Source of the DNA: a virus
IMG/VR virus record: IMGVR_UViG_3300030616_000091
Span: 1 to 20,469 of that record
Length of the DNA: 20,469 bases
Direction: 5' to 3' (one strand)
Position 1 is the stretch's first letter. Each line of letters opens with the position of its first letter. A program made the translations under genes and the position numbers. The notes under the pieces are model-generated. The model had not been told where the DNA came from. It worked only from the letters and a program-made list of their open reading frames with translations, and searched no databases. This document shows positions 1 to 12,321 of this stretch, one piece after another.

Positions 1-100
1 TAATACCCATTTCTTTTCTTTATATTTAAATAATCAGATAAATAGAGGAACAGGCCATTAATATCTTGGATTGCAGATATAAAGCGGAATGACGATAGAA

Positions 101-112
101 AGGTTTATATAC
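101..112 (+). promoter_or_regulatory. Archaeal TATA box, promoter of a short non-coding cassette
   Basis: The octamer TTTATATA lies at 104-111, preceded by a purine-rich stretch (GAAAGG) that could act as a BRE. Archaeal TATA boxes sit about 26 bp before the start site, which would place transcription initiation near 134. No protein gene follows on this strand before a hairpin and T-run at 162-206. The same octamer occurs at 1396-1403 ahead of the late operon. Confidence 0.55.
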
Positions 113-116
113 CTAT

Positions 117-132
117 AATACTATATAGTATT
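117..132. promoter_or_regulatory. 16-bp perfect palindrome, candidate repressor operator
   Basis: The sequence AATACTATATAGTATT is a perfect inverted repeat with no spacer. It starts 6 bp after the TATA box and ends at the predicted start site, where a bound dimer would block polymerase recruitment. That placement is typical of archaeal repressor sites. The binding protein is not identifiable here. AT-rich DNA yields short palindromes by chance, but 16 bp at this position is notable. Confidence 0.5.
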
Positions 133-133
133 G

Positions 134-206
134 TAGTCATATACCCCCTAAAAATCTAAAAGAAGGAAAGGTTTTTCATATTTTTTCCTTTCCTTTCTCT
201 TTTTTT
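134..206 (+). ncRNA. Putative ~70-nt small RNA
   Basis: This is inferred from a TATA box 26 bp upstream and an intrinsic-type terminator at its end, with no open reading frame of useful length between. The transcript would contain a C-rich single-stranded segment (ACCCCCTA, about 142-150) and then the 3' hairpin. No known RNA family is recognised. The start site is predicted only by TATA spacing. Confidence 0.4.
162..206 (+). terminator. Hairpin plus T7 terminator
   Basis: GAAGGAAAGG (162-171) pairs with CCTTTCCTTT (187-196): nine Watson-Crick pairs and one G-U, around a 15-nt T-rich loop. T7 follows at 200-206. Both the stem and the T-tract support transcription termination on the plus strand. 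Confidence 0.6.
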
Positions 207-314
207 CTATGTGCTTTTATTTTAAGTGCATTATGGTAATGTTTAAGATAAGGCACTTCCGTATTGAATATAATGATTAATATATTAAATTGAGAATATA
301 ATGCGGAATGGGAT

Positions 315-321
315 AAAAAAA
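315..321 (-). terminator. T-run terminator after the minus-strand gene pair
   Basis: On the minus strand a run of seven T lies about 12 nt beyond the stop codon of the gene ending at 333. Archaeal termination often needs only such a T-run. No strong stem is seen beside it. Confidence 0.35.
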
Positions 322-332
322 TATATAAAGGA

Positions 333-527
333 TTAAAGTATAAGATTATGATAATTCTTAATTGCTATTGATATACTATTATACTTAAAGTTATATACTA
401 AATAAATATTACTTAATATCTGTTTAATATATAATGCTGGTTTATCCCTATTTGTAAGTATAAAGTTTTTATATTCTAAAGTATAGTATATCTTATTGTT
501 ATCTATTCCTTTTTTGTATATTTGCAT
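333..527 (-). CDS. Hypothetical protein, 64 aa
   Basis: Not recognised. The product is short, basic and rich in Ile, Asn, Lys and Tyr, as expected for AT-rich DNA, with no motif, Cys pairs or clear membrane segment. It lies 18 nt downstream of the stop of the 546-1115 gene on the same strand and would share its transcript. An AAAGGGA stretch lies 5 nt before the ATG and is at best a weak ribosome binding site. A chance open frame remains possible because the region is AT-rich and stop codons are still absent over only 64 codons. Confidence 0.4.
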   Translation of the reverse strand: MQIYKKGIDNNKIYYTLEYKNFILTNRDKPALYIKQILSNIYLVYNFKYNSISIAIKNYHNLIL

Positions 528-545
528 TTTATCCCTTTAAAAGAA

Positions 546-1115
546 TTAAAGAAGGAATATTAAATAATATTCCCTATCTATTTGTTTTGCTAATTGTCTT
601 GCTTGATATATTTTGTTATCATCTATTAATCTTTTAAGTTTATCGTAATTGCTGTCAATATTTACTATATGTGGGGTTGCTTTTAGATTGCTTAATAAAT
701 TGTTTAATGTGTTATTATCCCAGTGGTCTATGTCAATTGTTTTTATTCTGTTTTTATCGTGTAAGATTTGTTTGATTGCTTTTATTGAAAGGTTTTTGCT
801 ATTTGCTATTATGTATTTTAGTCTTGAATATTGTATTATTGAATTACCTTTAGTTTTTTTGTTATTTTCTGTTAATAGTTTTACCCTGTTATCTATATCT
901 ATAAATATTGTTTGTTTTTTGCTGTTATCATTTGTGTATCTAAAGAATAATTCATATTTTACACAAGATTTTATTAAATTACATATATCCTGTGTTATAT
1001 TTTTATTCTCTATATACTGAAAGGTTTTATATTTTTCAGGATTATTTCTTGCTTCTAATACACAATCTTTAATGATTGTGATATTACCTATTGTTTGATA
1101 TTTTATTTCTGACAT
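546..1115 (-). CDS. Hypothetical protein, 189 aa
   Basis: Not recognised. The product is a soluble, Lys/Asn/Ile-rich protein, predicted mostly helical, with one acidic-aromatic stretch (DIDHWDNN, about residues 127-134) and no zinc or nucleotide-binding motif visible. The strand is supported by a good archaeal promoter whose TATA box is centred about 28 nt before the ATG, implying a leaderless mRNA. It is transcribed away from the structural genes, which suggests an early or regulatory role; that is inference from position only. A GGAATATT/AATATTCC inverted repeat (554-573) lies inside its last codons and may form a hairpin in the transcript. The plus-strand frame opposite (649-1020) is a shadow. 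Confidence 0.7.
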   Translation of the reverse strand: MSEIKYQTIGNITIIKDCVLEARNNPEKYKTFQYIENKNITQDICNLIKSCVKYELFFRYTNDNSKKQTIFIDIDNRVKLLTENNKKTKGNSIIQYSRLKYIIANSKNLSIKAIKQILHDKNRIKTIDIDHWDNNTLNNLLSNLKATPHIVNIDSNYDKLKRLIDDNKIYQARQLAKQIDREYYLIFLL

Positions 1116-1137
1116 AATTATAACAAATGCAAATTTT

Positions 1138-1148
1138 ACTTATAAAGG
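1138..1148 (-). promoter_or_regulatory. TATA box for the leaderless minus-strand operon
   Basis: Read on the minus strand the sequence is AACCTTTATAAGT. The TATA centre (about 1143) is 28 nt from the ATG at 1115, so transcription should begin at or within a few nucleotides of the start codon, as is common for archaeal leaderless genes. No Shine-Dalgarno sequence is present before this ATG, consistent with that. Confidence 0.65.
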
Positions 1149-1177
1149 TTGTGGTTAATAGATATTACAATTACATA

Positions 1178-1221
1178 TATCATATATAATATATCATATT
1201 ATCATAATATCATATATCATA
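1178..1221. repeat. Five TATCATA repeats in an AT-only tract
   Basis: TATCATA begins at 1178, 1192, 1200, 1208 and 1215, so spacing is 14, 8, 8 and 7 bp. The longer unit ATATATCATAT occurs exactly at 1175, 1189 and 1212. The array sits between the divergent promoters at 1143 (minus) and 1396 (plus). Closely spaced short direct repeats beside a very AT-rich stretch are features of iterons or of a multi-site operator. Low complexity could also produce the pattern by slippage. Confidence 0.5.
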
Positions 1222-1243
1222 TTTATATCAAAAATAAAAACAT

Positions 1244-1380
1244 AAATACCGATTAATGAAGATTGAAAATTGATACTCGCTAAGTCACCCACAAATTGGG
1301 TAACGGAAAGAGAAAAGAGGCATCCTCCTCTGAGGCCCAAAATTAGCTAGAAATAACGATCTGAAATACCTTTTTTGCCT
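1244..1380. other. GC-richer intergenic island with two small hairpins and a T6 end
   Basis: In a region otherwise nearly all A/T this stretch contains ACCCA/TGGGT (1287-1291 with 1297-1301), AGAGG/CCTCT (1316-1320 with 1327-1331, 6-nt loop), then T6 at 1371-1376. A TATA-like ATTTATAT lies at about 1220-1227, which would start a transcript near 1250. GC islands in AT-rich genomes often mark structured RNA, but no tRNA, riboswitch or C/D-box architecture could be fitted. It could equally be replication-origin or protein-binding DNA. Confidence 0.35.
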
Positions 1381-1389
1381 AAAAACACC

Positions 1390-1404
1390 GAAACCTTTAT
1401 ATAC
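1390..1404 (+). promoter_or_regulatory. Strong TATA box, main plus-strand promoter
   Basis: GAAACC followed by TTTATATA (1396-1403) is a textbook BRE plus TATA element. Predicted initiation is near 1424-1427, leaving a leader of about 150 nt before the first gene at 1573. It uses the same octamer as the cassette promoter at 104 and differs from the ATGTTATAATGT elements found inside the late cluster. Confidence 0.65.
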
Positions 1405-1440
1405 TATGACTATGTTTCATAATGCATATATATATATGAG

Positions 1441-1477
1441 AGAAGGTATATAGCTATATATCTCAACTTCTTTTTTT
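1441..1477 (+). terminator. Leader hairpin plus T7, possible attenuator
   Basis: TATATAGCTATATA (1447-1460) is a 14-bp perfect palindrome, extended by a G-U and two more pairs. T7 follows at 1471-1477, 50 nt after the predicted start site and about 95 nt before the first gene. Termination here would give a short leader RNA; read-through would give the late mRNA. A purely AT stem is weak, so efficiency is uncertain. Confidence 0.4.
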
Positions 1478-1572
1478 GAGATCTCGGTTAAAACAAATAT
1501 TGGAGCAGCAAGAAACGCTGGGTAGAAGGTGGGATATTACAATTCAAAAAGAAATAAATAGAGTGTGTTATA

Positions 1573-2148
1573 ATGACCAAAAAAAATAAGGTTGTGAAGT
1601 GGAATCTAGAAGATGAAGTCATACGCCTTAATAAAGAGGGAAAAAGCACTAATGCTATAGCGACAGCTATATCAGATAAATACGGAGACATTCCTGAATT
1701 AGATGATATTAGTGCTATGTCAATACATCGTTTTCTAAAAAGCTATGATGAGAAAGAGCTTCAGGAAAAGATGGACATAACAAAGGATCCACAAACAACT
1801 ATGGAAAGAGAGTTTAATATTAAAATGAGAGAGTCAATACTTGATTCCGAGAAGGCTAGACAAACAATAGAGAGCTATATGGCGAAACTAAAGAATGAAG
1901 ATTTAACATCATCTGATGTACAAAAGATAATTAGCTCGTGGCAGAAAGTAAATGACCAATATCGAAAGAATTTGGTCTCGTTAAGGGAGTTTGCAGACAA
2001 TCGCATAATAAAGCCAACTCAGAACCTTATATACAAGAAAGAAATAAATATAAAGAATCTACTCCTTGATGTTTCACGAGACCTCTGTAAAGAGTGTAGA
2101 GACAAAGTTAAAAAGAGGATAAAGGAGGTAATAAATGAAAAAGAGTGA
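1573..2148 (+). CDS. terS: Small terminase subunit candidate (HTH protein)
   Basis: The 191-aa product starts with a likely helix-turn-helix: a helix ending in LNKEGKSTNAIATAIS (about residues 18-33) and a second near ISAMSIHRFLKSY (46-58), resembling resolvase or Terminase_1-type HTH domains. The rest (about 70-190) is strongly charged and helical, as expected for an oligomerisation region. A CKEC pair lies near residue 174. It is the first gene of the late operon and lies about 560 nt upstream of the large terminase, so recognition of packaging-site DNA is the likely role. The ATG sits inside GTTATAATG and has no Shine-Dalgarno site. A plain transcription regulator is the alternative, since small terminases are poorly conserved. 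Confidence 0.55.
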   Translation: MTKKNKVVKWNLEDEVIRLNKEGKSTNAIATAISDKYGDIPELDDISAMSIHRFLKSYDEKELQEKMDITKDPQTTMEREFNIKMRESILDSEKARQTIESYMAKLKNEDLTSSDVQKIISSWQKVNDQYRKNLVSLREFADNRIIKPTQNLIYKKEINIKNLLLDVSRDLCKECRDKVKKRIKEVINEKE

Positions 2149-2383
2149 AGTAGCTTGGTACATACCAGGTCCTCAGTTCCATTTGTCAGAAGCAATGAAG
2201 AAATTTCTATTATTGATTGCTTTAACATTTGTAGCTGGTGGATTAAATGCTGTAATAGCTCTAATTGAAGGTGGTTCAGTACTTATACCACAAGAGTTTT
2301 TAGCATATTCTGGTTTGTTACTAGCAGTATTGCATACTATATATACAATCGTAATAACTTACAAAGATGGACTTGAAGATTAG
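2135..2383 (+). CDS. Small membrane protein, two predicted TM segments (holin-like)
   Basis: The 82-aa product has a charged N-terminus, a first hydrophobic segment at about residues 23-45 and a second at about 55-77, then a short acidic tail. The start overlaps the preceding gene by 14 nt and is fixed by an excellent AAAGGAGGT ribosome binding site at 2121-2129. Size and topology match holins or other small viral membrane proteins, but no family signature is visible. A second small membrane gene follows. Lysis of an archaeal cell, or a membrane role in assembly, are both possible. Confidence 0.65.
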   Translation: MKKSEVAWYIPGPQFHLSEAMKKFLLLIALTFVAGGLNAVIALIEGGSVLIPQEFLAYSGLLLAVLHTIYTIVITYKDGLED

Positions 2384-2443
2384 ACAACGAGACAACGAAA
2401 TGTATATTAGCAATGTAATATAAATAGGAATGGAGGAAAAAAT

Positions 2444-2635
2444 ATGAAGCTCGGTTTACTTAAAAAGCTTCCAAAAGCCGTCTTACTTACTCTAGGCGGT
2501 ATCGTACTAGGACACATAGTTGGTGTGTTGTTCACTGATATTGGAGTAGCATCAACTATAGCTTGGGAAGAGATACTTATCTTCTTAGGTGGTATATCTG
2601 GTCTAGTACTTGGATTAGCTGATGAAGAACTCTAA
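2444..2635 (+). CDS. Small membrane protein, two predicted TM segments
   Basis: The 63-aa product has a basic start (KLGLLKKLPK), a Gly-rich hydrophobic segment at about 12-31 and another at about 38-59, ending with acidic residues. An ATGGAGG ribosome binding site lies at 2431-2437. It follows another two-TM protein by 60 nt. The pair resembles a holin/antiholin arrangement by layout only. Membrane-anchored virion or pore function cannot be told apart from sequence. Confidence 0.65.
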   Translation: MKLGLLKKLPKAVLLTLGGIVLGHIVGVLFTDIGVASTIAWEEILIFLGGISGLVLGLADEEL

Positions 2636-2669
2636 TACTAGTATAAGGTAATACAGTAATACCAAATAC

Positions 2670-2681
2670 ATGTTATAATGT
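2670..2681 (+). promoter_or_regulatory. Late-gene motif copy 1 (exact ATGTTATAATGT)
   Basis: This exact 12-mer ends 23 nt before the terL ATG and is followed by T-rich DNA. Two other exact copies (6785 and 16841) and three with one mismatch precede other late genes. The spacing fits a promoter element at about -25 to -30 for a transcript with a very short leader. Confidence 0.55.
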
Positions 2682-2704
2682 TTATTTATTTTATATAGAA
2701 GAAT

Positions 2705-4099
2705 ATGACAGTAGATCCTTTAAAGTTCTTGGAGTATACGACTGATTGCAAAGTCTTCATGGAAGATGTGTTAGGACTCACAGTAAAAGACTTTCATGAA
2801 GAGTGGCTCGACCTATTCGATAAGAATAGATTTGTATGCTTACTAGCCCCAAGAGGACATGGTAAAAGTACCATTGTTGAGGGGTATATCATATGGCGTA
2901 TCTTAACTGATCCGTCTATTAGAATATTAATTACTACAGTAAATCAAAATAAAGCTGAAGAAATGATGACATTCATAAGTCATCATCTTGAGTATAATGA
3001 AAAGATCATAGATCTATTTGGTGAACAAAAATCAAATCTATGGTCAAGATCAAAATTAAGAGTTAAAAACAAAGGTGGAGGTGTAATCCACAAAGAACCT
3101 ACATTACAGGTTCTTGGAGTAACATCATCCCAAATATCATCTCACTATGATATAATTATCTTAGATGATGTTTGTGATAGAAAAAATACAGCAACAGCAC
3201 ATAGAAGAAGACAATTAAAAGAATGGTATGAAACAGAATTATTAGAGATGCTAGAACCAGAAGGTCAAATAATAAACATAGCAACAAGATGGCATGCCGA
3301 TGACATACACAACTACTTATCAGAGAAGGAAACCTATGTATCAAGAAGATATAAATCTATACCTGATAAAGAAAAAGAAATATCTTTATGGCCTGAAAGA
3401 TTCAGCTATGATGACTTGGTAAGATTAAGAGATGAACATATAGGTAAAGTTGCATTTGAAATGCAATATCAGAATAATATAATTCAAACAGAAGACTCAC
3501 CTATTAAGAAGGAATGGGTTGATAATGCAATGGCAAGATGGGATGAATCTAAATTTCCTACTGATACAGAAAGATTCATTGGTGTAGATCTTGCATCAAA
3601 GAGTATTGAAGGAGATTACTTTGTTGCTACAGTAGTAGCAAAAACACAAAATAATAGTTATTTCGTTGTTGAAAGTATTAGAGACAAAGTCTCTATGAGT
3701 ACTCAACTTGAAATAATAAAATCATTAAGTGATAAATGGGCTCCTAGGATGATAGGAATAGAATCTAATGCAGCCCAGAGAATAATAACAGATGAGTGGA
3801 AAGATACAACTACTCTACCTATCAAACAATTAAAATCCTCTTGGGTTAATGACAAATGGTCAAGACTACAAAAATTAAGTGTATTGCTTGAAACTAATAG
3901 GATAACTATTAATCCTATGTTAGATTTCTTAGCAGATGAGCTAATAAGCTATCCTAGAGGAATGCATGATGATGCAATAGATAGCCTGGCATTTGCTATA
4001 CAATCATCTGAGGATGATTTGGATCCAGTTAACTGGAATCAAGTATCTCAAATATTTACAGCAAGGAAAAGAAAGCTACCCTTTGTTGTAAAAGCATAA
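2705..4099 (+). CDS. terL: Terminase large subunit (packaging ATPase-nuclease)
   Basis: The motor that pumps DNA into the prohead and cuts the concatemer. The 464-aa product has a Walker A motif RGHGKST (50-56) and Walker B IIILDD (150-155). A coupling motif lies in NIATRWHADD (191-200). An RNase H-like nuclease domain shows D295 in GVDLA, E353 in GIESN, and D422/D423 in HDDAIDSLAF. All expected catalytic residues are present and the length is normal for the family. The ATG has no clear ribosome binding site and lies 24 nt after the ATGTTATAATGT motif, so a short-leader transcript is likely. Gene order (terS upstream, portal downstream with alba between) supports the call. Confidence 0.95.
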   Translation: MTVDPLKFLEYTTDCKVFMEDVLGLTVKDFHEEWLDLFDKNRFVCLLAPRGHGKSTIVEGYIIWRILTDPSIRILITTVNQNKAEEMMTFISHHLEYNEKIIDLFGEQKSNLWSRSKLRVKNKGGGVIHKEPTLQVLGVTSSQISSHYDIIILDDVCDRKNTATAHRRRQLKEWYETELLEMLEPEGQIINIATRWHADDIHNYLSEKETYVSRRYKSIPDKEKEISLWPERFSYDDLVRLRDEHIGKVAFEMQYQNNIIQTEDSPIKKEWVDNAMARWDESKFPTDTERFIGVDLASKSIEGDYFVATVVAKTQNNSYFVVESIRDKVSMSTQLEIIKSLSDKWAPRMIGIESNAAQRIITDEWKDTTTLPIKQLKSSWVNDKWSRLQKLSVLLETNRITINPMLDFLADELISYPRGMHDDAIDSLAFAIQSSEDDLDPVNWNQVSQIFTARKRKLPFVVKA

Positions 4100-4134
4100 T
4101 GTTGTTTCATGTATAAAGAATAAGTGGTGTCAGT

Positions 4135-4425
4135 ATGTCTGAATATGAAGATGTATATATTGGTAATAAACCAATTCAAAATTATCTAACTGCTGGGATT
4201 TGGGCATTAGGTCAAAAAAACCCAACAAGATTATTAGGAAGAGGAAGTAACATTAAAACAACAGTTGATGTTGCTGAAATCTTAAAAAGACAAATGATAA
4301 ACCCTGAAACTATAATAGAAATAGATAGTGAAGAATATGAAGATTCCAGAAATGGAAATAAAAGAAAAGTCTCTACTATATCTATAATACTTAAGGGTAA
4401 GAAAAAAGAAAAAGAAGAAAAATAA
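4135..4425 (+). CDS. alba: Alba-family nucleic-acid-binding protein
   Basis: Alba proteins are small dimeric DNA/RNA-binding proteins of archaeal chromatin. The 96-aa product matches the fold's landmarks in order: beta1 and loop VYIGNKPIQNY (7-17, compare the GKKPVMNY signature), a helix over 18-29, the GRGSNI loop and second helix TVDVAEIL (35-50), then KRKVSTISIIL (76-86), the usual RVSTIEI-type last strand. A Lys-rich tail (KGKKKEKEEK) follows. A GGTG ribosome binding site lies 7 nt before the ATG. It sits between terL and portal, so it is expressed with packaging genes. It might bind packaged DNA, compact host or viral DNA, or bind RNA; the location favours a late role, by inference. Confidence 0.85.
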   Translation: MSEYEDVYIGNKPIQNYLTAGIWALGQKNPTRLLGRGSNIKTTVDVAEILKRQMINPETIIEIDSEEYEDSRNGNKRKVSTISIILKGKKKEKEEK

Positions 4426-4438
4426 ATGAGATGAATAT

Positions 4439-5779
4439 ATGTCTATACTTGATAGATTTAGAAACATAGGTTTCTTTAAGAATAAAATAGATTACCTTGA
4501 TGACCAAGGTAAGCCTAAAACTATTATACAAACTGGAAAGAAAAAACAGTTTGGTCAAAATAAGGGTCTTAGAACAAAAGCCCAACTTGTTAAATATTGG
4601 AACTACTACTCTGGTGAAGATACTGTGTGGGCTGCTGTAAATTCTATAGCATTCAATACTGTAATGGTTGGATATGATATAGAATCAGACAATCCAAGAG
4701 CAAAAGAATTAATACAAATGTGGTGTAAGAGAGTAGATTTAGATACTCATATGCTAGATAACACAAGATATGCTCTTGCAATGGGTGATGCATTCATAGA
4801 AATAGTTTATAATAAAAAGAAAGAACCATCATCTTTATTAGATGTTGACCCAAAAACAATGGAAATAGAATATGATGAACACGGAATAGTTCAATCATAT
4901 AGACAAAGTTTAGGTGTAAGAGATAAAGAAGGGATTCCTAAACTAGATAAACATAGTATATGTCATATAAAGTTCTTCTCTAATCCATCAAATCCATATG
5001 GAATGTCTTTAATTGAGGCATCTATGGACGTAATAGAAAAGAAAGTAAGAACTGATAATGCAATTGCAAATGCAATTATAAGGCACGGTACAAGTAAAAC
5101 AGTCTTTACAGTAGGAAATGAACACGATAGACAATTACCACCAGAATCAGTATTAAAGGACATAAGAGATGAGGTAGAGGATATAGATGAAAAGAATGAA
5201 TTCATCGTACCTTGGAATGTAACAGTTAGTACAATAGATGAAAAAGGTATTACAGGTGTTGAAGAATATTATAATTACTTCCAATCACAACTGGTATTGG
5301 GATTACTCTGTACTGAAGAAGCTTTAGGATTAGGTAGAGGAAGTACAGAAGCAACTAGTAAGACCAAAGCGTTACTATACGAAAGAATGATACAATCATT
5401 CCAATTAAGACTTGCCCATATAATAGAAAAACAACTATTTAATCAAGTATTAGTTGAGAATGGATTTGACCCAGATATAGTTACAATAGAGTTTAGAAGT
5501 GTAACTTCAACTGATGAATCAGAAAGAGCAAAATGGATGGGTAATCTAATAAGAGGTTTCAGATCATCTAAAGTAAAACCATTCACAATTAATGAAATAA
5601 GAAAGAAATTTAAGATGAAAGAAATAGATTTGCCAGAGGCAAACTCTATTATATATGAAGGTTATGGTTCTGGAGAATCTGAACCAGAAGAAGAGCCACA
5701 GAGTGATGAACCTGTTACAGAGGAACCAGAAGAAAGTGAAGAGAATGAAGAAGAGGAAAAAATAGATGAGGAAGAGTAA
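4439..5779 (+). CDS. Portal protein
   Basis: The dodecameric ring at the special capsid vertex through which DNA enters. The 446-aa product shows features of the HK97/SPP1-type portal family: YALAMGDAFIEIVYN (about 107-121), the ICHIKFFSNPSNPYGMS segment (about 174-190) followed by a long helix, and the region LCTEEALGLGRGS with downstream QSFQLRLAHIIEKQLFNQ. The last ~35 residues are almost entirely Glu/Pro/Asp, an acidic tail. The gene lies 13 nt after alba and overlaps the start of the protease gene by 14 nt, the classical terminase-portal-protease order. Confidence 0.9.
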   Translation: MSILDRFRNIGFFKNKIDYLDDQGKPKTIIQTGKKKQFGQNKGLRTKAQLVKYWNYYSGEDTVWAAVNSIAFNTVMVGYDIESDNPRAKELIQMWCKRVDLDTHMLDNTRYALAMGDAFIEIVYNKKKEPSSLLDVDPKTMEIEYDEHGIVQSYRQSLGVRDKEGIPKLDKHSICHIKFFSNPSNPYGMSLIEASMDVIEKKVRTDNAIANAIIRHGTSKTVFTVGNEHDRQLPPESVLKDIRDEVEDIDEKNEFIVPWNVTVSTIDEKGITGVEEYYNYFQSQLVLGLLCTEEALGLGRGSTEATSKTKALLYERMIQSFQLRLAHIIEKQLFNQVLVENGFDPDIVTIEFRSVTSTDESERAKWMGNLIRGFRSSKVKPFTINEIRKKFKMKEIDLPEANSIIYEGYGSGESEPEEEPQSDEPVTEEPEESEENEEEEKIDEEE

Positions 5780-6296
5780 AAAGACTTTTCATGCTCCATA
5801 CGTAAAGTTTGAGTATGATAAAAGACAAGTAGGAAAAGCAACTGATGTTAGGATATATAGAGATGTTACTTTACTTACAGAGGGTAAATTTACAGACTCT
5901 TTATCAATGACAGGGGTTTCTTATCCTAGAGATGTATTAGAAAGGACTGTTAATAATTGGCAATCTAATTACTTAAACATAGACCATTCACATAATGTAC
6001 TTGACAGGATAGGTACAGTAGAGAACGCATATTGGAATGGAGACAAAGTCAAAGGCGACTTATATATACACCCAATAACTAGAAATGCTATGGATACGAT
6101 AAAACTAATTGATGATGGATTAATAAATTGGTTATCAGTTGAGATTATGACGGAAGATGCATGGGACAGAAATGATGAGAGATATGTTAAGGATTTAGAA
6201 TATATAGGATTAGCTGTAGTAACTGCTCCAGCTTGCCAAGGTGCATTAATATCTGACGAAGGTCCAAAACCACCAGAGTTTTTATATGAAGAATAA
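5766..6296 (+). CDS. Prohead maturation protease 1 (HK97/S78-like)
   Basis: Cleaves scaffold or capsid N-terminal domains during head maturation. The 176-aa product has the family's His motif (NIDHSHNVLDRIG, H74/H76) and Ser motif (INWLSVEI, S124) 50 residues apart, then a strand ending AVVTAPACQGA. The start overlaps the portal gene. It is short and lacks a scaffold domain. A second, longer protease-like gene is present at 9290, so this window carries two. The N-terminus preceding the protease domain (RKSKKTFHAPYVKFEYD) is not recognised. Assignment of S124 as nucleophile follows the family pattern and was not tested. Confidence 0.75.
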   Translation: MRKSKKTFHAPYVKFEYDKRQVGKATDVRIYRDVTLLTEGKFTDSLSMTGVSYPRDVLERTVNNWQSNYLNIDHSHNVLDRIGTVENAYWNGDKVKGDLYIHPITRNAMDTIKLIDDGLINWLSVEIMTEDAWDRNDERYVKDLEYIGLAVVTAPACQGALISDEGPKPPEFLYEE

Positions 6297-6450
6297 GGCA
6301 ACTTGTGAATACCAAAACATTTGTAGTAACTACCCACTAAAATGTCATAAATGCGTATTTAACAGAAATTTAAAGTTAAAAAATTATTTAAAGATAAAGA
6401 AAGGAAATAAGGAGATTCGTTATTTAGGGGATTCTGATGAAGGGGTGTAA
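6286..6450 (+). CDS. Small zinc-finger-like protein, 54 aa
   Basis: A short frame that overlaps the 3' end of the protease gene by 11 nt and the 5' end of the next gene by 14 nt, filling what otherwise looks like a 140-nt gap. The product starts MKNKATCEYQNICSNYPLKC and has C7, C13, C20 and C23, a pattern (C-x5-C-x6-C-x2-C) that suits one zinc ion. A very basic segment (about 27-41) and an acidic end follow. The tight overlaps on both sides and conserved-looking Cys spacing argue for a real gene. Function unknown; protein or nucleic-acid binding is plausible. Confidence 0.65.
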   Translation: MKNKATCEYQNICSNYPLKCHKCVFNRNLKLKNYLKIKKGNKEIRYLGDSDEGV

Positions 6451-6784
6451 GTCGGTTCAAGTACCAGGTTGTCCACTTTGTGATATGTTCATTAAATTGA
6501 ACATAAAAACAAAGTTATATTATCCAGAGAAAGATAAGATACAAGATCAAGATGATTTCGTGATTGTGGAATGTCAAACTTGTCACGTTCCTATGGTAGT
6601 GGTATCAGATCATACTACTGAAATTGGAAGGGAACAATGGGGAAGGATTCTCTATAGATGTAGGGAATTGTTTGGTAATGGAATAAAATTAAGAACCCAT
6701 AGAAGATATATAAAAGACCATTGGCATGCTCACATAACAAGCATAACCAAAGATATTAAAAAATTAGAAGATTTAAATAAGTAA
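6437..6784 (+). CDS. HIT-like small protein with zinc-binding CxxC pairs
   Basis: The 115-aa product has CPLC (12-15) and CQTC (46-49), enough for one zinc site. It ends with DHWHAHI, an H-x-H-x-H triad at 95-99 like the HIT nucleotide-hydrolase signature. The middle (FVIVECQTCHVPMVVVSDH) also resembles the central strands of HIT proteins. If it is HIT-like, the activity would be hydrolysis or transfer of nucleotide phosphates, but the triad's last hydrophobic pair is only partly visible. It overlaps the preceding small zinc gene and ends just before the late motif at 6785. Alternative: a structural zinc protein whose His triad binds metal. Confidence 0.6.
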   Translation: MKGCKSVQVPGCPLCDMFIKLNIKTKLYYPEKDKIQDQDDFVIVECQTCHVPMVVVSDHTTEIGREQWGRILYRCRELFGNGIKLRTHRRYIKDHWHAHITSITKDIKKLEDLNK

Positions 6785-6821: not shown

Positions 6822-7766
6822 ATGTCAAGATTAGCAAAAATACTCGAATATACCTATGCAGGTAATTTGGAAAGGAAAAAACTAATAAATAGACCATCAT
6901 TTCCATATGATATCAAAGAACTTCTTATGAGTGAAGGAATGGAAGCAGATACAATATTAACCGAGGAATTACAAGGAGCACTAATAGATGGAGCAGAAAA
7001 GAGATCAGTAATAAGAAAAATATTGCCAATAATAAAAGTTAGTAAATATAAAGCAATTGTTCCTACCAATATATCACCTAGTGGAGTAGTAGGTCCAACA
7101 GCAGAAGGAGCAGTTCCAGCAAGTCTTGAAGGTTCATACTCATCAGGCTCATTATCTATTAATAAATATTCTACTAAAATAGGAATAACTAATGAAATGA
7201 TAGAGGATTGCCAATGGGACGTTATTGAATATCAAGTTAAAAGAGCAGGTGCTCTATTAGAAAACACATTAAATAAAGATGGCATGACAGAACTCTTAGA
7301 TGGACATAATGGTACATCTCCAGCTGATAAAGATCCAGCTAGTTCTCACTTTGAATTAGCAGACCTTGCAGATATAAAGAATACCCTTATGGATAAATAT
7401 TGGGGTGGTGGAGGATTATCATTTATAGGACATCCAGAGGCAATACAATTCTTACTAGATAGTGATGCATTGGCAGTAAACGTAGTTCCGAACCAAGGCG
7501 GACAATTACTTGGTGTTGATATTTATGAATTAAATACTCCTATAGGAAGTGCTACAAATTATTGGGATGCTACAGATGCTGCAAACCATTATTATGGAAT
7601 CGTTCTAGATACAGATAATTACGCTGTAATTGGTATGAGAGATGATATACATATAACAAAAGAAGTGAAGGATCCAATACATGACCTAACACAATTAATA
7701 GCTAGTATGAGATTTGATGTTAAGGTCATAAATAGTAAAGCAGCTGTTAGGATTTTAAGTAAGTGA
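6822..7766 (+). CDS. Major capsid protein paralog 1 (HK97 fold)
   Basis: The shell-forming protein of the head. The 314-aa product carries a typical HK97 N-arm (MSRLAKILEYTYAGN), an E-loop/P-domain region ending GITNEMIEDCQWDVIEYQVKR, and the usual C-terminal end KDPIHDLTQLIASMRFDVKV. It is clearly paralogous to the protein at 11341: the N-terminal 21 residues, the ITNEMIED motif, and the DPIHDL-x5-MR end are shared. It lacks an ~11-residue N-terminal insertion present in that paralog and has a GGGGL loop of its own. Both may build one shell, or one may be a minor or alternative capsid protein. Start chosen at the ATG matching the paralog. Confidence 0.85.
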   Translation: MSRLAKILEYTYAGNLERKKLINRPSFPYDIKELLMSEGMEADTILTEELQGALIDGAEKRSVIRKILPIIKVSKYKAIVPTNISPSGVVGPTAEGAVPASLEGSYSSGSLSINKYSTKIGITNEMIEDCQWDVIEYQVKRAGALLENTLNKDGMTELLDGHNGTSPADKDPASSHFELADLADIKNTLMDKYWGGGGLSFIGHPEAIQFLLDSDALAVNVVPNQGGQLLGVDIYELNTPIGSATNYWDATDAANHYYGIVLDTDNYAVIGMRDDIHITKEVKDPIHDLTQLIASMRFDVKVINSKAAVRILSK

Positions 7767-9070: not shown

Positions 9071-9290
9071 TGACAATGGCTGGAAAGAGTGGAGCAAGTA
9101 TGTCCTAGCTGAACTAAAGTCTCTTAACAACAAATATGAGAATATCAACAAGATATTAACAAACCATCTTATGCATACACAAGAGAGACTAACTGTGTTA
9201 GAAACAAGCTTAAGGAATTGGAAATACTTTGTTGGACTTATGGTAACCATATTAGGATTAATAATTGCAATATCAGGATTGATTAGATAA
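9060..9290 (+). CDS. XhlA-like membrane protein (coiled coil plus C-terminal TM)
   Basis: The 76-aa product has an amphipathic coiled-coil (about residues 8-52) and one strong hydrophobic segment (56-75) ending LIR. This is the layout of XhlA/hemolysin-type accessory lysis proteins and of some tail or baseplate anchors. It overlaps the upstream gene by 11 nt and its stop shares one base with the next start (TAATG), so translation is probably coupled. A membrane role in lysis with the two-TM proteins at 2135 and 2444 is possible but unproven. Confidence 0.6.
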
Positions 9291-10801
9291 TGCCGCAACC
9301 ACCTAAAAAAGATGAAAGTAAATCTGACTTTATGAAAAGATGTATCCCTACATATATAAATGAGGGATATCCTAAAGATCAGTCAACAGCTATGTGTTAC
9401 AGTATGTGGAGAAAAAAACATCCAGAGGACAAGAAAAAGGCCAGAGGTGATGGCCAAGGTCAAGATGGAGATAGACAAGGAGATGGAGGAGCAGATATCT
9501 GTGTGTGTCCAGAATGTGGATATGAGACAGAACATGATAAAGGAACTCCTTGTAATGAAATGACTTGTCCTGAGTGTGGGTCTAATCTTGTTGGAAAAGA
9601 TAAAGAGGAAAGTATGTCATTAAAGAATATTGACTTTAGTAATTTAACAGTTACACTAGATGAAGCTGTAAAGGCTTTATATATAATGGCTAATCCAAAA
9701 ACATTAGAAATAGAATCACCAAAAAGACACATTCATATAGATTTACTAGGTAACATAAAGATCATAGATAAATCTGATAGTAGAAAAATAATAGCTGGTT
9801 ATGCATCATTAGCTGTAATAGATACAGAAAATGAATATATACCAGTAAAAGTTCTACAAGAAGGACTCAACACACTAATGAAAGATGAATCCTATTCAAA
9901 TATAATGATTGTTCATAAGAACATACAAATAGGTAAGATACTAAAAGAATACGAAGAATTAAAAACCCATGTAGATGACAAAGGACTATTTATAGTTGCT
10001 GAGATAAGAGATGACTTAGAGATAGCAAAAGCTACATGGATAAAGATTGAAGAAGGTGAGATACGAGGATTCTCAATAGGTGGTGAGATTATAGAAGACC
10101 ATGAAGAATGTGGAGACGATGGATGTATAAAGGTAATAGATAAAATTAATCTATTTGAGATTTCAGTCTGCTCTAATCCTGTCAATAAGGATTCAGGCTT
10201 TGAAATAATTAATAAATGTGATGTGGATATGTTAGATAATAATATTGATAAGATGAAAAAATCCAAAAAGGATGAACCAGAAGTCGAGGAGAAATCAAAA
10301 GATGAAGACTGTAAAGACTGCGACCCAAAAGAGCTAGAAGAGCCACAAGAAGAAATTGAAGAAGAGGTAAAGACCAACGAAGAGCCAGAATTACCAAAAG
10401 AAGAATTACTAAGTAAATCTGATATTATAGAAACAATCAGAGAAACAATTACAGAAACCCTTAAAGCAATACACGAAAAAGAATTACAAGAGAAAGAGGA
10501 CGATGATGAAGATGATGACGATGAAGAACCAGTAGAGGTTGAACCAGTTGAAGAAGAAAAAGTCGAAGAGAAATCAGAGAAGGTAGAAGAGACAGATGAA
10601 GAATTAGAAATGGCAGTTAAAGCCAGAGACGAAGCAATAGAAGGTTTCAGAGACGAGATTAAAAAACTCAAAGAACAAGTTAAAAAATTAGAAGAAACCG
10701 AAGAAGTGCCAAAGACATCTGTTGAAGAGAAAGAACCTTCATATGAAAAAGATTCTGGTATTATCATAGATAAACGTCATGGTCGCATATATAAACAGTA
10801 A
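9290..10801 (+). CDS. Protease 2 fused to zinc ribbon and acidic scaffold-like tail
   Basis: A 503-aa multi-part head protein. Residues 13-46 form a small Cys-containing segment ([13 protein letters not shown]...[11 protein letters not shown]) seen at the start of some phage protease-scaffold proteins. Residues 71-100 are a zinc ribbon (CPEC at 73 and 93, with extra C71 and C88). Residues about 165-310 resemble an S78-type prohead protease: [17 protein letters not shown]209 in MIVHKN, S262 in RGFSIGGEI (53 residues apart), then [12 protein letters not shown]. From about 315 to 480 the chain is Glu/Lys/Asp-rich with a coiled-coil ([20 protein letters not shown]), a scaffold-like tail. The gene precedes decoration and capsid 2 genes. 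Self-cleavage to release scaffold is expected from the family. Confidence 0.75.
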
Positions 10802-11273: not shown

Positions 11274-11340
11274 TTACGTTCATTATTATAATGAAAACAT
11301 GTATGTCTATCTTATGTTTATAATAAATTAAGTGATTTGT

Positions 11341-12321
11341 ATGAGTAAACTAACAAAAATGCTGGAGTATGCCTATGCTGGTAACGTAGAGAGAAAGAAA
11401 TTAGCAAACAAAGAAAGCTTTAAGAAAACAGTACTAGATACATTACCAAGAGAAAGACGTGAATTACTTCTAAATGAGGGAATGGAATCAGACACATTAC
11501 TTCAAGAAGAGGTATATAGTACCATCGTAGAAGGATCAAAACCACTACAATGCGTAAGAAACGTATTTCCAATAATCAATACTAATACATATCAAGTACG
11601 TATCACAAAAGAAAGTGGTAACTTAGGTAAAGCTGTAGATGTAGCAGAAGGAGCTGCAATACCAATTGACACAGAAACATTCAGTACAGTTGACTTAGTA
11701 ATCAAAAAAGTTGGTACAAGACCAGTAATTACCAATGAAATGATTGAAGATGGTCTCTGGGATATGGTAGAATTCGAGTTGATGAGAGCTGGCCAAAAGA
11801 TTGAACACAAACTCAACTATGATGTAATCAATGAAGCAACTGATAAAACTACATATGCTGCAATATCTAACGTAAATGCAGGAGCTGCTTTTACATTAGC
11901 TAATGTACTTGAAGCAATTAAAGACATTCTTGACTATGATTATGTTCCAACAGATATGATCATGACTCCATTTGCTGAACACAATCTTATTAGTTCAAAT
12001 AACTTACTACAGGCTCATATGGCAGGTAGCGATGCTGCTTTAAGAAACTATGACCTAGGTAAGATATTCGGATTAAATCTACATAGATTAACAGTAGACG
12101 GATGGACAACTGGAACATATAAGTGGAATTCTGGAAACGACACAGCTAACGATGTACACGCATTAGTTTGTGACCCATCATACTGTTTCATCGGTATGAG
12201 AAGGGATATTACAGTAGAACAATACGATGACCCAATCCATGACCTTATAGGTATAGCTGCAACAATGAGATATGGTGTCAAGACAGTTCAACCAGAAAAA
12301 GCTTGTATCATAGAGCATTAA
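11341..12321 (+). CDS. Major capsid protein paralog 2 (HK97 fold)
   Basis: The 326-aa product is an HK97-type capsid protein: N-arm MSKLTKMLEYAYAGNVERKK, the segment VITNEMIEDGLWDMVEFELM, an A-domain with MIMTPFAEHNLI, and C-terminal YDDPIHDLIGIAATMRYGVK. The start is the ATG at 11341, not the in-frame GTG at 11332: the ATG reproduces the paralog's N-terminus at 6822 exactly and GTGAT upstream serves as ribosome binding site. It has an ~11-residue insertion near residue 30 (VLDTLPRERRE) absent from paralog 1. It stands as its own unit with the decoration gene, ended by a strong terminator, as expected for the most abundant virion protein. Confidence 0.9.
   Translation: MSKLTKMLEYAYAGNVERKKLANKESFKKTVLDTLPRERRELLLNEGMESDTLLQEEVYSTIVEGSKPLQCVRNVFPIINTNTYQVRITKESGNLGKAVDVAEGAAIPIDTETFSTVDLVIKKVGTRPVITNEMIEDGLWDMVEFELMRAGQKIEHKLNYDVINEATDKTTYAAISNVNAGAAFTLANVLEAIKDILDYDYVPTDMIMTPFAEHNLISSNNLLQAHMAGSDAALRNYDLGKIFGLNLHRLTVDGWTTGTYKWNSGNDTANDVHALVCDPSYCFIGMRRDITVEQYDDPIHDLIGIAATMRYGVKTVQPEKACIIEH

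Follow-up and report, generated by a model that had tools for sequence, protein, structure and literature searches.

The open reading frame at positions 4135–4425 of the window (the whole 20,469-nt stretch of viral DNA analyzed here, IMG/VR record IMGVR_UViG_3300030616_000091) lies on the plus strand, begins with ATG and specifies a protein of 96 aa, hereafter referred to as the viral Alba on the basis of its Pfam match, its structural model and its conservation in relatives. Alba is known as an archaeal chromatin protein and as an RNA binder. The frame starts 35 nt past the stop of the terminase large subunit gene (TerL; 2705–4099, plus strand; phrog_38, E 3.9e-78) and ends 13 nt ahead of the start of the portal gene (4439–5779, plus strand; phrog_9232, E 4.9e-25). 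With a match of 44.5 bits to Pfam family PF01918 (Alba; E 1.3e-11, cut-off 25), the original prediction of an Alba gene between terminase and portal is borne out.

The best PDB relative of the protein is the A. fulgidus Alba 1nfh (E 1.6e-10, phmmer). A predicted structure lacking the Alba fold would have refuted the original prediction; the single-chain AlphaFold (AF2) model that we built from eight viral Albas is a confident one (pLDDT 88.8) with the b1-a1-b2-a2-b3-b4 Alba fold, agreeing with 1nfh at a Z of 13.3 and an rmsd of 1.2 Å over 83 residues. Alba structures are also its top Foldseek matches (E 2e-7), the viral structures of BFVD returned no match at E 0.001, and all 21 viral Albas in the aligned set match PF01918 at E ≤ 0.001. 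A chance reading frame was considered and rejected: 60 dinucleotide-shuffled versions of the window yield 3,410 ORFs, none of which matches the viral Alba HMM, and both the fold and the kept position also speak against it. That the frame encodes a genuine Alba-fold protein is confirmed.

The fold (Z of ~12–13), the Pfam family and the size are those of archaeal chromatin Alba (Sac10b family; Sso10b/Alba1, AF1956 and Mth10b). The window protein scores below the cut-off of the chromatin-Alba equivalog TIGR00285 (49.5 vs. 88.25 bits) and below that of NF003088 (51.6 vs. 90 bits), so that it belongs to the Alba domain family but falls outside the chromatin-Alba equivalog. The Alba2 paralogs (Sso10b2, Ape10b2) have the common Alba fold and are also diverged, but are host chromosomal, and Alba1-type structures match the viral model slightly better than Alba2 structures do. 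Rpp20/Rpp25 and Pop6/Pop7 (RNase P/MRP) and SpoVS have the Alba-superfamily fold in common with it, at an identity of only ~10–20% and with other cellular roles.

Upstream of TerL lies a candidate small terminase (TerS; 1573–2148, plus strand), nominated by its position, by an alignment of 18 relatives and by a model (pLDDT 81) in which short N-terminal helices resembling a helix-turn-helix are followed by long helices. Comparison of this model with a small terminase (G20c) gives a Foldseek E of 0.87, amid noise, and an S15-like NCBIfam match found in only 1 of the 18 members was taken as chance. Since a separate TerS candidate is present upstream in the 18 relatives aligned, albeit one with weak family and fold matches of its own, Alba is not obviously a TerS replacement. 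Downstream of the portal gene come a prohead protease-like protein (5766–6296, plus strand; PF04586, E 0.00097, just under the cut-off) and an HK97-fold major capsid protein (6822–7766, plus strand; PF05065, E 1.5e-9). The window has a second HK97-fold major capsid protein gene at 11332–12321, and each of the two has a prohead-protease-like gene upstream, the weak one already given and a strong one at 9290–10801. The 115-aa product of 6437–6784, conserved after the protease in several relatives, ends in the HxHxH-like DHWHAHI, by eye like HIT proteins, and has no Pfam matches. A search of the window for tRNAs found none.

Distribution and descent of the TerL-Alba-portal block

The distribution of the block was followed in 60 records with an alignable TerL, drawn from TerL-keyed scans of viral contigs, two MAG contigs and TerL matches in archaeal genomes. 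Where TerL identity to the window is 41% or more (28 records), Alba stands directly after TerL in 26, which answers the call of the original prediction for the gene in relatives with the same gene order, and the portal gene comes next in 25 of these 26 carriers, the contig of the remaining one (L028) ending there. At TerL identities of 33% or less, Alba follows TerL in none of 32 records in the DNA examined, where some loci are short. The two close relatives that depart from the pattern (L011 and L036) have the portal gene directly after TerL, without Alba between, in the records examined. These are possible losses; Alba is dispensable or replaceable in these two viruses, and because of them it is not indispensable.

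A second scan of viral contigs, keyed on an Alba pattern from viral and host sequences and independent of TerL, gave 20 loci, 19 of which have the TerL-Alba-portal block; for one of the 20, L033, the gene order was read in the TerL-keyed set. The odd one, a 128-kb record (L238, IMGVR_UViG_3300028891_000081), carries elsewhere a host-like Alba with a KARGRAIS motif (3989–4261), outside any packaging block seen, and is a separate acquisition. The 26 TerL-keyed records and 11 Alba-keyed additions, each counted once, bring the records with Alba directly after TerL to 37, a count from which we left out the IMG/VR copy (L231) of the L083 contig, which has the same length and the same block. When 48 virus records were searched over their full length for PF01918, 23 had Alba, 22 of them above the cut-off. 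Intergenic gaps range from −17 to 37 nt between TerL and Alba and from −29 to 19 nt between Alba and portal, and since the genes are so tightly packed, co-transcription of the three seems likely. Alba is a core gene of the packaging module of this virus clade, and the arrangement is clade-wide.

The TerL scan of genome contigs found no relatives. TerL searches by taxon gave, among 389 genomes of the G050 phylum, one close match (G050 itself) and distant matches in three genomes; they gave none at E 1e-50 in the phylum of G440 (398 genomes), two in the phylum of G443 (392 genomes), three in that of G441 (195 genomes) and G049 itself in its order (101 genomes). No Alba was seen at the five matches from the phyla of G443 and G441, which are short loci with little DNA downstream in L180 and none in L181. 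The Bathyarchaeia tailed virus Fuxivirus, an archaeal member of the Caudoviricetes, also has TerL and portal genes close together; as described in PMC10848311 they are the consecutive genes 27 and 28, without Alba between. Viruses of the Fuxivirus type were rejected as relatives with the same block on this account.

Apart from the question of Alba, packaging genes of the clade carry inserts. The TerL ORFs of L036 (2041–5736), L037 (1486–5568) and L031 (3852–6257) are 801–1360 aa long with intein splicing/Hint and/or LAGLIDADG domains, the inserts lying by eye at the Walker A motif, and the start of L012 is an intein-like end. The portal ORFs of L030 (6720–9005), L035 (6830–9166) and L033 (2042–4084), at 680–778 aa, are far above the usual length; a LAGLIDADG domain in that of L030 and a weak one in that of L035 indicate that a further packaging gene of this clade has intein-like inserts.

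The TerL tree (which omits L028, L053–L055 and L059) places 24 Alba carriers within a clade of 26 (99/97), with L036 sister to the rest and L011 nested, and the Alba presence label undergoes two state changes on it. This is consistent with Alba having been gained once, after the L036 split, and lost once, in L011; a history with a second loss would take one change more. On the Alba tree, 23 viral sequences (near-identical L023, L028 and L053 being left out here and in the residue counts) fall on one side of a branch (100/99) from 37 host sequences of diverse archaea, the latter being what 75% thinning left of 78 pattern-drawn ones. A recent pick-up of a host gene was rejected on two grounds. 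The sampled host Albas stand apart from the single viral clade on this tree, and a viral Alba profile run over 80 genomes from the class to which G050 belongs gives 135 bits for the viral contig but no more than 63 for any other Alba.

Alba distances correlate with those of portal (r 0.70) and TerL (r 0.62), with p 0.0005 in a Mantel test that omits L023, L028, L053, L083 and L087. For the window and L006, dN is 0.145 and dS 0.916 for Alba, which is purifying selection; most other pairs are near silent-site saturation. Because the viral Albas form a single clade whose divergence parallels that of TerL and portal, the sequence comparisons support a single ancient acquisition followed by vertical descent with the packaging genes.

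Residues kept and replaced in the viral Albas

We compared 32 viral with 100 host Albas residue by residue in Sso Alba1 numbering. The host set includes 78 Albas from a pattern scan that restricts Sso columns 42–51 to few residues each; at 47 the pattern accepted K as well as S, at 45 N as well as A, and the patch columns discussed below lie outside it. L236 and L237 have the same Alba as L087 and do not enter the counts.

The GNKP loop (residues 10–13; 4162–4173, plus strand), the KVSTISI strand (78–84) and the Lys-rich C-terminal tail (87–96; 4393–4422, plus strand) are all present as the original prediction had read them. K12 of the loop is Sso K17, one of four nucleic-acid contacts that the viral Albas keep, K17 in 30/32 and Y22, R42 and G43 in 32/32. 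The window protein has all four and shares them with archaeal chromatin Alba. In its RGSNIK motif (residues 36–41; 4240–4257, plus strand), R36 is the kept Sso R42, S38 replaces R44, N39 replaces A45 and K41 replaces S47. These replacements are general: the contact residue R44 is R in 3/32 viral vs. 92/100 host Albas, N takes the place of A45 in 29/32 viral and 0/100 host sequences, and K that of S47 in 32/32 and 0/100, respectively. K40 is found in 0/32 viral vs. 96/100 host Albas.

A further change concerns the dimer-dimer patch, which is the oligomerisation surface of Sac10b-family proteins as described in PMC7498313. Between Q15 and T19 (4177–4191, plus strand), the first residue is Sso M20 and the last Sso L24 of this patch, and both are now polar. 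At least three hydrophobic residues among M20/L24/L27/F60 are found in 0/32 viral vs. 98/100 host Albas, and the same result holds among 26 HMM-drawn host Albas, 24 of which have at least three. Every one of the 32 viral sequences has S, T or N at position 24; position 60 is Tyr in 21/32, and in the window's subclade a one-residue gap makes it uncertain. With the patch lost from 32/32 viral Albas and the cut-off of the chromatin-Alba equivalog missed, the claim that the protein does not act as host-like chromatin is supported. Unlike chromatin Alba, the viral protein is encoded by a virus in a packaging block and has lost the patch, R44 and K40, with lysine for S47 and asparagine for A45.

Other parts of the protein vary within the clade. 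The beta3-beta4 hairpin is shortened in 26/32 viral Albas, the window keeping a long one, and most have a Lys-rich tail, which is short (K91 in 20/23, hosts mostly ending before K91); in the window model the last block of the tail has a pLDDT of 61. The net charge of the window Alba is only about +2. Three viral Albas (L029, 6472–6837; L034, 4041–4427; L239, 3983–4360) have an insert of ~28 residues from helix 2 to strand 3, and a Micrarchaeota MAG (L142, 4653–5264) has two tandem Alba domains in one 203-aa ORF.

Possible roles of the viral Alba

The course of events that we favor is that a host-type Alba was captured once by the ancestor of this clade of tailed viruses (Caudoviricetes), became fixed in the late packaging operon in the interval between TerL and portal, and has been inherited with it since; synteny, phylogeny and correlated divergence support such a single capture, fixation and co-inheritance. 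The kept contact residues and the fold suggest that the viral Alba dimer probably still binds nucleic acid. The loss of the hydrophobic surface that joins chromatin Alba dimers into fibres and bridges DNA is seen in the residues themselves, and from it we infer that fibre formation and bridging would be lost as well. Discrete dimers would then sit on viral DNA where TerS/TerL and portal engage and would help the packaging complex to assemble, as an architectural packaging cofactor much like E. coli IHF for lambda terminase. One capture, sequence constraint, kept contacts and the absence of the fibre surface together argue against host-like chromatin and for a discrete component that binds nucleic acid during packaging or assembly. 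We favor an architectural cofactor dedicated to packaging of the genome, and give this reading a probability of about 0.4. The more specific version, in which chromatin Alba was domesticated as a virus-encoded terminase-portal cofactor in IHF's role for lambda, its fibre surface dismantled and its grip kept, is one that we hold to be doubtful.

IHF is described as helping lambda terminase (PMC11868608; PMC4856287), and the likeness is one of working only: IHF is a small DNA-architectural protein that acts at the start of packaging, whereas this role of the viral Alba is a proposal, and IHF has an unrelated fold, is host-encoded and bends a specific site. According to a review, Alba stiffens or bridges DNA without stringent sequence specificity, so the analogy is a loose one. 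A helpful yet dispensable cofactor would fit the two relatives without Alba. Against a packaging role deduced from position, any late gene passed on vertically should vary with TerL and portal in this way, so that its place is no proof of such a role; and the changes at R44, K40 and (in most relatives) the hairpin mean that binding may be weak or different in kind.

The reading that comes next is that of a virion nucleoprotein, which would enter the particle together with the genome that it coats or neutralises, like the chromatin proteins in some archaeal virions. The presence of a cellular chromatin protein in SSV1 virions, as given by a title cited in PMC10848311, is a precedent, and the late-operon location and the Lys-rich tail would suit such a protein. 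The lost dimer-dimer patch argues against dense cooperative coating, and the net charge of only about +2 also speaks against this reading. Products of TerL and portal genes are needed in few copies, and a gene flanked by those for low-copy products seems poorly placed for a coat. At ~5 bp per dimer (PMC4200833), a genome of 60–70 kb would call for more than 10,000 dimers, and we consider this role unlikely, at roughly half the weight of the packaging cofactor.

Two further roles appear more improbable still, to about the same degree. In one, the viral Alba would heterodimerise with host Alba and, for want of the patch, cap or reshape its fibres, as Alba2 does with Alba1. The fold and many core residues are kept in a manner suited to this, and the Thermoplasmata MAG G050, which has the viral block, has two other Albas. 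Host-takeover genes are usually expressed early. A takeover gene needs no fixed place between TerL and portal, yet the place is kept down to ~41% TerL identity. In a review, Sulfolobus Alba2 is described as working by pairing with Alba1, and Alba1:Alba2 heterodimers as forming condensed, not rigid, complexes, which speaks for this reading.

In the other, the protein would act on RNA: it might be a chaperone, regulate translation of the late operon or belong to a complex with a packaging RNA. Binding of RNA by Sac10b/Alba proteins is described, and the S. islandicus RNA chaperone Sis10b needs a basic residue at position 17 (PMC7498313); K17 and G43 are kept in the viral Albas as given above. 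The same source reports that Sis10b no longer worked as a chaperone when the patch was mutated, or when R44 was mutated in combination with K16 or R83; patch and R44 are both altered in the virus. No Rfam family was found in the window or five relatives at the gathering score, nor in positions 1–6000 of the window at E up to 1, a search that covers known families only. The suggestion in the original prediction of binding to an RNA of the packaging motor thus drew no support, and a packaging RNA was rejected as a candidate for want of an Rfam match, an undescribed RNA lying beyond the reach of Rfam.

Least probable by some distance is re-use of the Alba fold in a protein of head completion or of the portal that no longer binds nucleic acid. 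The position (in lambda, too, a small gene, W, separates those for TerL and portal), the lost R44 and K40 and the shortened hairpin of most relatives could be cited for it, but the invariant R42, G43 and Y22, the K17 kept in 30/32 and the new invariant lysine at Sso 47 fit nucleic-acid binding better.

Host and significance

An archaeal host is probable for the window virus and its clade, since the genome of a relative (the L022 record) has PolB, ERCC4-HHH nuclease, Rad51-like ATPase and PriS-like primase genes, which fit one. ANMV-1, a virus of an uncultured archaeon, heads the list of TerL matches in named phages (26%), and two of the three portal matches are one Methanobacteriales virus (25%). 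The blocks of L083 and L087 are binned in Thermoplasmata MAGs; the whole contig of L083 (L187) has only viral-looking genes, so that the link rests on binning, and we treat Thermoplasmata as a lead to the host.

Searches of the open PubMed Central literature listed no virus-encoded Alba tied to packaging, and a survey from 2024 that covers 15,161 Alba proteins (PMC11621453) has none of the words "virus", "viral" and "phage" in its main text. No Alba was found in 50,697 named phage records (tblastn, three Alba queries, E up to 1), and such tblastn negatives in named records stand without a positive control, as a plasmid search with a host Alba query gave one poor match.

The block described here suggests that a chromatin protein has apparently been turned into a part of virus packaging or assembly. 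If the viral Alba is indeed a packaging cofactor, it would open a direct and testable way into the start of packaging in the tailed viruses of archaea, and would amount to a natural experiment in which a fibre-forming chromatin protein became a discrete DNA-binding part.
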